Origin: a virus
DNA length: 34,935 nucleotides
IMG/VR virus record: IMGVR_UViG_3300029268_000068
Coordinates: 1-34,935 of that record
Reading direction: 5' to 3' (one strand)
Under the pieces are notes generated by a model. The model did no database searches, was not told the origin of the DNA, and saw nothing but the letters and a program-made list of their open reading frames with translations. The stretch's first letter is position 1. The number at the start of each line of letters is the position of its first letter. Made by a program: the position numbers and the translations under genes. Below are positions 22,404 through 23,675 of this stretch, piece by piece.

Positions 22404-23246
22404 TCATAAGCGGCCACCTCCCTGCTTCAGCATTTCAACTACTTCCTGGACTCTCTGGGGGTTACCTTTAAAATTGTTAACCTCAGTGATGACGCGGTAT
22501 ACTTCCTCCAGGGTAAAGTGGTGAGTGAACACCGCCCCCTGGTGTGACGCTTCAAAAAGGCTCACGCCCCATATATCCATGGCCACCTCGTTGCATAACC
22601 TGAAATCAGGCTTGGATAAAGCTTTGGATAAATAGTTCTTGAACGCCTGGAAATTTCCATACTGGATAGGCTGCTTATTAGTGGTTACCTCGATGAAATT
22701 CTCTTCGCCGAGCTTTTCACGTAAATTCCTTGACATCCCGCTCTGGCTTCCAAGATATGTCAATAACAGTGAAAACTGGGTATAAACCACCCCGCCGGTA
22801 TAGTAGCAGTTGGTCATCTTGCTGCCCATTTTACACGGGTAAACCATTTTTTCAACCTTACCGGCATGCTGTGGAAGCGCCTTCAGGTCACGCTCACGTA
22901 TTTCACCCTCCATCTCATTGAACCGTTTTATATACATTTCCTTAAACTTCATTGCCTTTTCGCCGATATAGCCAAAGGCAAGCATCGTAAAGCCGTCTTT
23001 TGTGACGTGATATTCAGGTCGTGGCTTACCTTGCCGGTCATAAAATTCGGCCAATCCAAAGTTGGATTGGCTAAATTCATCGGAACATCCTAAGTTTTGG
23101 AGATCTCTTAAAACATGCGCATGTTGTTTCCCGAATGTTTTGGCTATTAGCCTGGAAGTTGTGATTGGCCTGTCATTTTCGATTACGACTAGTTGCTCAG
23201 TTTTAGCCGTAGCTTGGCTTTCGTTGAATTTAGTTAATGTATTCAT
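22404..23246 (-). CDS. Rha-family phage regulatory protein, probable antirepressor
   Basis: This 280-residue protein has an N-terminal Rha domain (residues 17-115): VVIENDRPITTSRLIAKTFG, then HAHVLRDLQNLGCSDEF, and EYHVTKDGFTMLAFGYIGEKA followed by KFKEMYIKRFNEM. Rha proteins interfere with host or phage repressors. The C-terminal 160 residues are not recognised and may bind a partner. The start overlaps the stop of the preceding short ORF as ATGA, with a strong AAAGGAG site inside that ORF, so translation is probably coupled. It lies downstream of a C4-type antisense RNA, the same order as c4-icd-ant in phage P1. Confidence 0.85.
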   Translation of the reverse strand: MNTLTKFNESQATAKTEQLVVIENDRPITTSRLIAKTFGKQHAHVLRDLQNLGCSDEFSQSNFGLAEFYDRQGKPRPEYHVTKDGFTMLAFGYIGEKAMKFKEMYIKRFNEMEGEIRERDLKALPQHAGKVEKMVYPCKMGSKMTNCYYTGGVVYTQFSLLLTYLGSQSGMSRNLREKLGEENFIEVTTNKQPIQYGNFQAFKNYLSKALSKPDFRLCNEVAMDIWGVSLFEASHQGAVFTHHFTLEEVYRVITEVNNFKGNPQRVQEVVEMLKQGGGRL

Positions 23247-23497
23247 TGTTTACTCCTTTCCATTTGATAAATTTCAATTCTTTTGATGTGTTCACGTAAT
23301 TCCACATAAGTGGTAATGATCCCGTTTTTGAAGTCGGGTGCAATGCTATCGTAATCCCGCACGAAGGATAGGAACATCTCGTGAAGGTTCTCGGAGAAAT
23401 AGGCCATTTCGGCCACAGACAGTAAATCTTTGATGATCAGTTCAGCCGTGATCGGCCGGTGCTCGCATAGAGCGCATTTGTCCATTGGTTCAAGCAT
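23243..23497 (-). CDS. Leader ORF coupled to Rha, target of the C4-like RNA (icd analogue)
   Basis: This 84-residue protein starts at MLEPMDKCALCEHRP. A second ATG lies four codons later. A start at 23689 would read through the structured RNA and is rejected. The protein has a CxxC pair near the N-terminus and is otherwise helical (TAELIIKDLLSVAEMAYFSE; TTYVELREHIKRIEIYQMER). The start codon region contains GCUUGAACCA, exactly complementary to a single-stranded part of the upstream RNA. It ends with an ATGA overlap with Rha. By analogy with P1 icd, its translation probably opens the Rha start. Whether the protein has its own activity is unknown. Confidence 0.75.
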   Translation of the reverse strand: MLEPMDKCALCEHRPITAELIIKDLLSVAEMAYFSENLHEMFLSFVRDYDSIAPDFKNGIITTYVELREHIKRIEIYQMERSKQ

Positions 23498-23527
23498 AGT
23501 TTTAATGGATTTGAAATTAAACAAATA

Positions 23528-23600
23528 GGGACGGTCACCGCTTGAACCATCAAAGCAAGGCTTTGTAAGGACTGCCGGACTTTCACCGGTTTGCCGCCCC
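23528..23600 (-). ncRNA. C4-type antisense RNA
   Basis: This 73-nt core folds as a closed unit on the minus strand. The outer stem pairs GGGGCGG (23600-23594) with CCGUCCC (23534-23528). Inside lie a CCGG/CCGG hairpin with a UGAAAGU loop (23589-23575) and a 6-bp CAAAGC/GCUUUG hairpin with a 3-nt loop (23565-23551). The segment UGGUUCAAGC (23549-23540) is unpaired in this fold and perfectly complementary to the start of the downstream ORF (23495-23486). CCGGUG (23589-23584) is complementary to CACCGG at 23461-23456. Two short complementary regions, size near 77 nt and position before an antirepressor are the hallmarks of P1/P7 C4 RNA. Confidence 0.8.
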
Positions 23601-23667
23601 GTAACTGTTTCAGTCTTAGTGTTTGTGATAGATGCCTCACAATAATAATTTGATGATTCAAGCACCA

Positions 23668-23675
23668 CAAACGTA
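23668..23675 (-). promoter_or_regulatory. Possible promoter -7 element for the C4-like RNA
   Basis: TACGTTTG on the minus strand matches the Bacteroidota -7 consensus TAnnTTTG. The start would be near 23661, about 60 nt before the C4-like fold. I see no good -33 TTTG at the usual distance, so activity is uncertain and the RNA may instead be cut from the early transcript. Confidence 0.4.

Follow-up and report, generated by a model that had tools for sequence, protein, structure and literature searches.

C4 is a classic phage immunity RNA; it is processed to ∼77 nt by RNase P, and Icd is a cell-division inhibitor. In phage P1, C4 is cut from a precursor by this enzyme and blocks icd/ant translation (PMC5320573). 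The P1 annotation lists a1, c4, a2, icd, and ant1 in this order, icd and ant1 overlapping by 4 nt, and the P1 a1b1 region is RF03163 in Rfam. According to a 2010 survey, the range of C4 is Proteobacteria and phages (PMC2864571), and this survey was the only paper with C4 antisense RNA together with "Bacteroid" in the literature searched, which did not cover subscription papers. C4-like RNAs have also been described as the Group 1 sRNAs of Acinetobacter baumannii, recognized as a C4 motif by Rfam structural search (PMC5320573). The P22 sar RNA, a 68/69-nt RNA pairing with ant mRNA, is like the system proposed below in that an antirepressor is under antisense control at translation initiation (PMC12197685). 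Here we analyzed a 34.9-kb virus sequence (IMG/VR record IMGVR_UViG_3300029268_000068, 34,935 nt; hereafter the window). A 73-nt element on its minus strand is, in our judgment very probably, the core of a Bacteroidota antisense RNA that works like P1/P7 C4, blocking a small ORF and, by coupling, the antirepressor Rha.

On the minus strand, the order of elements is a -7 box, a1, the RNA core, a2 at the ORF start, the ORF, and rha. The 73-nt core (23528-23600), delimited by covariance models and covariation, consists of a 7-bp outer stem (GGGGCGG at 23600-23594 with CCGUCCC at 23534-23528), a UGAAAGU-loop hairpin (CCGG-UGAAAGU-CCGG, 23575-23589), which is the most conserved element of the class in the alignments, a second hairpin (CAAAGC-CUU-GCUUUG, 23551-23565), and an antisense linker. 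In a relative, L242 (same place as L149), CAAAGC-AUC-GCUUUG is found at the position of the second hairpin. The antisense segment UGGUUCAAGC (23540-23549) lies unpaired ahead of the outer stem's 3' strand and is complementary at 10 of 10 nt to the target a2, GCUUGAACCA (23486-23495), which covers the G of the AUG (at 23497) and codons 2-4 of an 84-codon ORF. An upstream target copy, a1 (GCUUGAAUCA, 23654-23663), can form 10 bp with the same segment, including one G.U pair. It is preceded by the -7 box TACGTTTG (23668-23675), which resembles the Bacteroidota-type TAnnTTTG and whose promoter function is inferred; no clear copy of the -33 TTTG was found in the window upstream of the RNA. Taken from the window sequence alone, the 10-nt pairing has a shuffle p of ∼0.007. 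The single-sequence fold of the window RNA is unremarkable (z -1.5), so the case for the RNA rests on its relatives. The plain MFE fold, which differs from the three-stem form, was set aside in favor of the covarying structure, and Rfam matches near the element to MIR5291, IS102, and SNORD97 were below the gathering score and taken as chance.

By pattern scan and covariance models, ∼60 relatives were found in Bacteroidota genomes and virus contigs (60 members aligned, 58 distinct; the host is undetermined for some virus-contig members). Viral contigs were scanned for the conserved 15-mer hairpin, and the matches, mostly due to chance, were sorted by eye and then by the models. A gapped pattern run against 84,980 species genomes gave 59 genome matches with only six clear members (at least 63 bits; the next at 28). 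All six are from Bacteroidota (Pedobacter, Sphingobacterium, Mucilaginibacter, and a Bacteroidales MAG) and are seeds or near-copies of seeds. Sequenced hosts with the module include Pedobacter ginsenosidimutans KACC 14530 (L154) and Sphingobacterium cellulitidis R-53603 (L183). Model R1, made from 12 seeds, matched 27 of 301 genomes that share a family with the Sphingobacterium genome, 5 of 393 that share an order with the Bacteroidales MAG, and 3 of 395 from the phylum; model R2 matched none of 249 genomes from the same phylum as a Marinobacter genome. These large genome searches were run with strict filters. The window core scored 63.9 bits with R1 and 53.6 bits with R2. The held-out model R3, built without the window, returned exactly 23600-23528 at 57.1 bits (E 9.2e-12), its next-best match in the window reaching 12.9 bits. 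No occurrence of an exact 18-mer of the window RNA was found. On this sequence evidence, the window RNA is included in a Bacteroidota C4-like class defined by models R1-R3.

All 15 base pairs of the structure have changes on both sides (compensatory) in the 58 distinct sequences, and covariation is present in the outer stem and both hairpins. Cells were paired at 93.6%, compared to 71.8% after shuffling; the covariation score was 0.577 vs. 0.166 shuffled, and at most 0.12 when the partner was slid by one column. The alignment was fitted to the structure and the pair counts are thus biased in its favor; the seed alignment was plain MAFFT, however, and the values are far from those of the controls. 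The initial annotation had drawn a three-stem RNA at 23600-23528 from the window and had named stem covariation as a check; the sequence is as it described, and the held-out model and the covariation agree with it.

We compared the 19 nt immediately 5' of the outer stem's 3' strand with the following 90 nt. A Watson-Crick run of at least 8 contiguous pairs (mostly 10-11) is present in 48 of 58 members, and the match overlaps an ATG in 45 members. The mean antisense:a2 run is 9.4, vs. 5.0 in dinucleotide shuffles and 5.2 when targets were swapped between members. The Bacteroidales relatives L242, the nearest one, and L239 differ in their antisense letters, each with a matching target: CGGAUCUUGC faces AUGCAAGAUCCG in L242, and UUGUUACGC faces AUGCGUAACAA in L239. 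The perfect 10-nt pairing with the ORF start, pointed out from the window at the outset, is reproduced across the class, and its co-variation, also named as a check, was found, with antisense and target changing together in the 48 members. A second pairing (CCGGUG/CACCGG) claimed along with it can be seen in the window and is not conserved across the class; it occurs in 6 of 48 members vs. 8.9% of shuffles, i.e., at chance level, and was rejected.

The upstream copy a1 was found in 47 of 48 members with clear a2, located 45-67 nt before the RNA; in the sequence logo of the class, a1 is preceded within a few bases by a TTT-containing box resembling the Bacteroidota -7 element. Among 32 differences between a1 and a2, 26 keep the pairing as G.U. 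The expected G.U-keeping share is 0.45 at a transition bias of 4 (p 3e-5) and 0.56 at a bias of 10 (p 0.003); these p values are optimistic because the members are not all independent. The cassette of RNA and target as annotated earlier was borne out, a1 and the -7 box having been missed. In many Sphingobacteriaceae-type members (e.g., L039, L247, L018) a hairpin of the GUUGGAGnAAUCCAAC type directly follows a1; this hairpin is absent from the window and L242.

The 84-codon leading ORF (23243-23497, minus strand) is in the position of icd, and its stop overlaps the start of rha as ATGA. The rha gene (22404-23246, minus strand) encodes a Rha-family antirepressor (Pfam PF09669, E 1.3e-28; phrog_518 Rha-like, E 4.4e-42). 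A strong inverted repeat, CCAATCCAACTTTGGATTGG, lies within it at window positions 23039-23081 (minus strand). Family searches, a related-loci search, and tblastn in phages left the 84-aa ORF without a family or homologue, and no close homologues of the window rha came from the related-loci search. The early genes are Mu-like by PHROGs (transposase phrog_310, transposition protein phrog_296, and Gam phrog_491). Transposase matches among named phages were to Bacteroidota phages (Bacteroides, Porphyromonas, Winogradskyella, Elizabethkingia) or unnamed, the best named-phage matches being Bacteroides hankyphage-type records with ∼39% identity. The earlier description of a Mu-like Bacteroidota phage with Rha is supported by PF09669 and these PHROGs. 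The nearest phage, L002, with 75% transposase identity, is without the RNA and rha at that place and carries unrelated genes (L002:9558-10516) at the site of the RNA-ORF-rha cassette; the cassette is therefore exchangeable, and same-phage homologues could not be used for comparison. Nine named phage records, including hankyphage p00, Peternella_1, a Flavobacterium phage, and Bacteroides fragilis Rha phages, gave no match, so that a cultured phage model was not found.

Antirepressors follow only a minority of the class members. Rha is next in the window, L054, L039, and L239, AntA in L061, AntA and KilAC in L082, and KilA-N in L242 and L252. Elsewhere the next gene is a SymE-like ORF (PF08845; L227, L228, L229, L236, L237, L255), a RadC-JAB ORF (L232, L240, L243, L257), a HEPN protein (L251), or a BT4734-like primase (L224, L225). 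Antisense control of an antirepressor, as proposed, is supported by sequence in the window, and the class as a whole is not antirepressor-specific. RadC-like JAB proteins are apparent RNA targets in L232, L240, L243, L244, and L257. In the SymE/SymR type I toxin-antitoxin system, SymR is transcribed from the strand opposite SymE. The several members preceding SymE-like ORFs are like this system, with the antisense mostly over the start codon, and unlike it in that a structured leader RNA on the same strand carries the antisense as a short segment. A same-strand RNA antitoxin is possible for the SymE-like ORFs behind a C4-like RNA.

The window shares several features with P1/P7 C4 (RF01695): the RNA has three stems and belongs to the leader of the operon that it targets, it is antisense to a small ORF around its start, target copies lie both upstream and downstream, and the leading ORF overlaps the antirepressor gene by 4 nt. 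The order and logic of c4-icd-ant read into the locus by the initial annotation are supported in this respect, an RNA before a coupled ORF and rha with covariation in both stems and pairing. The motif is different while the architecture is shared: the outer stem has ∼17 bp in P1 vs. 7 bp in the Bacteroidota class, the UGAAAGU hairpin conserved in the class is absent in P1, loops and conserved letters differ, P1 has two antisense/target boxes vs. one conserved box, and the position of the class antisense in the 3' junction linker was counted as a further difference. The genomic setting is Proteobacteria and Ant for P1 vs. Bacteroidota and Rha for the window. A search with the Rfam C4 model, suggested earlier as a check, found no match in the window at gathering, nor nearby at E ≤ 5, and none in the relatives tested, though it finds P1 at 68.8 bits as a positive control. 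We therefore call the class C4-like and do not regard it as a member of RF01695 as modeled. The A. baumannii Group 1 sRNAs are comparable as C4-derived RNAs that occur in multiple copies in bacterial genomes and seem to arise by processing of longer transcripts (PMC5320573), but the Rfam C4 model does not match the Bacteroidota RNAs tested and most class members keep an adjacent target ORF.

In the mechanism that we favor, the RNA would have a promoter of its own and form the leader of the transcript that carries the ORF and rha. The linker UGGUUCAAGC would bind the first codons of the 84-codon ORF and block its translation, and the ATGA overlap would couple this block to rha, giving less Rha and favoring the prophage state. 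The a1 copy, which would lie at the transcript's 5' end or close to it, could pair with the same segment, so that a1 and a2 would compete. Sequence comparison establishes the class, with its stems, gene order, a1, and an antisense segment that co-varies with its target; that the RNA is transcribed and excised, that it represses, that the block reaches rha by coupling, and that lysogeny is affected are inferences. By nested folding the RNA alone folds closed (outer stem P 0.97). With the leader present a1 takes the antisense segment (mean P 0.95), and with the leader absent a2 does (P 0.82); for the full window leader with the ORF start, antisense:a2 is favored (P 0.87). In nested folding, a1 pairing and the outer stem cannot coexist, and the apparent exclusivity is partly an effect of the method; since the two cannot be shown together in this way, the three-way switch stays a hypothesis. 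Against the favored mechanism, the lack of homologues leaves translation of the 84-codon ORF without comparative support, antirepressor targets are in the minority, there is one box instead of two, the -33 element is not evident, and expression is without data.

A purely cis-acting leader switch, in which the a1, antisense, and a2 helices are mutually exclusive and no free trans-acting small RNA is made, would accommodate the presence of all three segments on one short leader and the folding probabilities with and without the leader (0.95 and 0.82), but that exclusivity is partly built into the calculation, the conserved self-contained three-stem core suggests a separate stable RNA as in P1, and some orphan copies without an adjacent target ORF match targets elsewhere. 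We consider the cis-only switch unlikely. Even less credible, and hardly to be entertained, is that a 148-codon protein gene (ATG 23689) begins here and the RNA features are coincidental: the frame of the 84-codon ORF is indeed open through the RNA in the window, but it is open in only 15 of 45 members, and both the compensatory change in all 15 pairs and the antisense/target co-variation speak against it.

It is also possible, though doubtful, that the RNA descends from the P1 C4 family, as a true but diverged member and not an independent invention, with the same mechanism as in the C4-like reading preferred here. The common three-stem plan, the a1-RNA-a2-ORF-antirepressor order, and the overlap fit such descent; against it, R1 does not detect P1 just as the Rfam model does not detect the class members tested, the outer stem is short, the antisense lies in the 3' linker, and the UGAAAGU hairpin is absent in P1. 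On a further reading, likewise only tentative, the RNAs may form an unnamed Bacteroidota-centered class that evolved separately from P1 C4, acting as a general off-switch for antirepressors, SymE-like, RadC, and HEPN genes, in which a1 would hold the antisense until it is removed and tandem orphans would silence modules of other elements in trans.

The relatives point to a family of RNA off-switches, little known so far, that would act on phage and toxin-like genes. With a widespread Bacteroidota counterpart of C4 outside Rfam, the control of prophages in this phylum would become directly testable. The a1/antisense/a2 layout in dozens of modules and the G.U-preserving drift of a1 make the role of a1 testable by comparison, and the occurrence of the RNA before toxin-like genes connects phage immunity RNAs with RNA antitoxins. 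Tandem RNA copies ∼150-320 nt apart, some without a target ORF, were observed in L229 (3355-3577), L230 (1981-2046), L224, L225, and L232. Two of the L229 orphan copies have 11-nt matches to start sites of other genomes, at L227:6689 and L256:1571.
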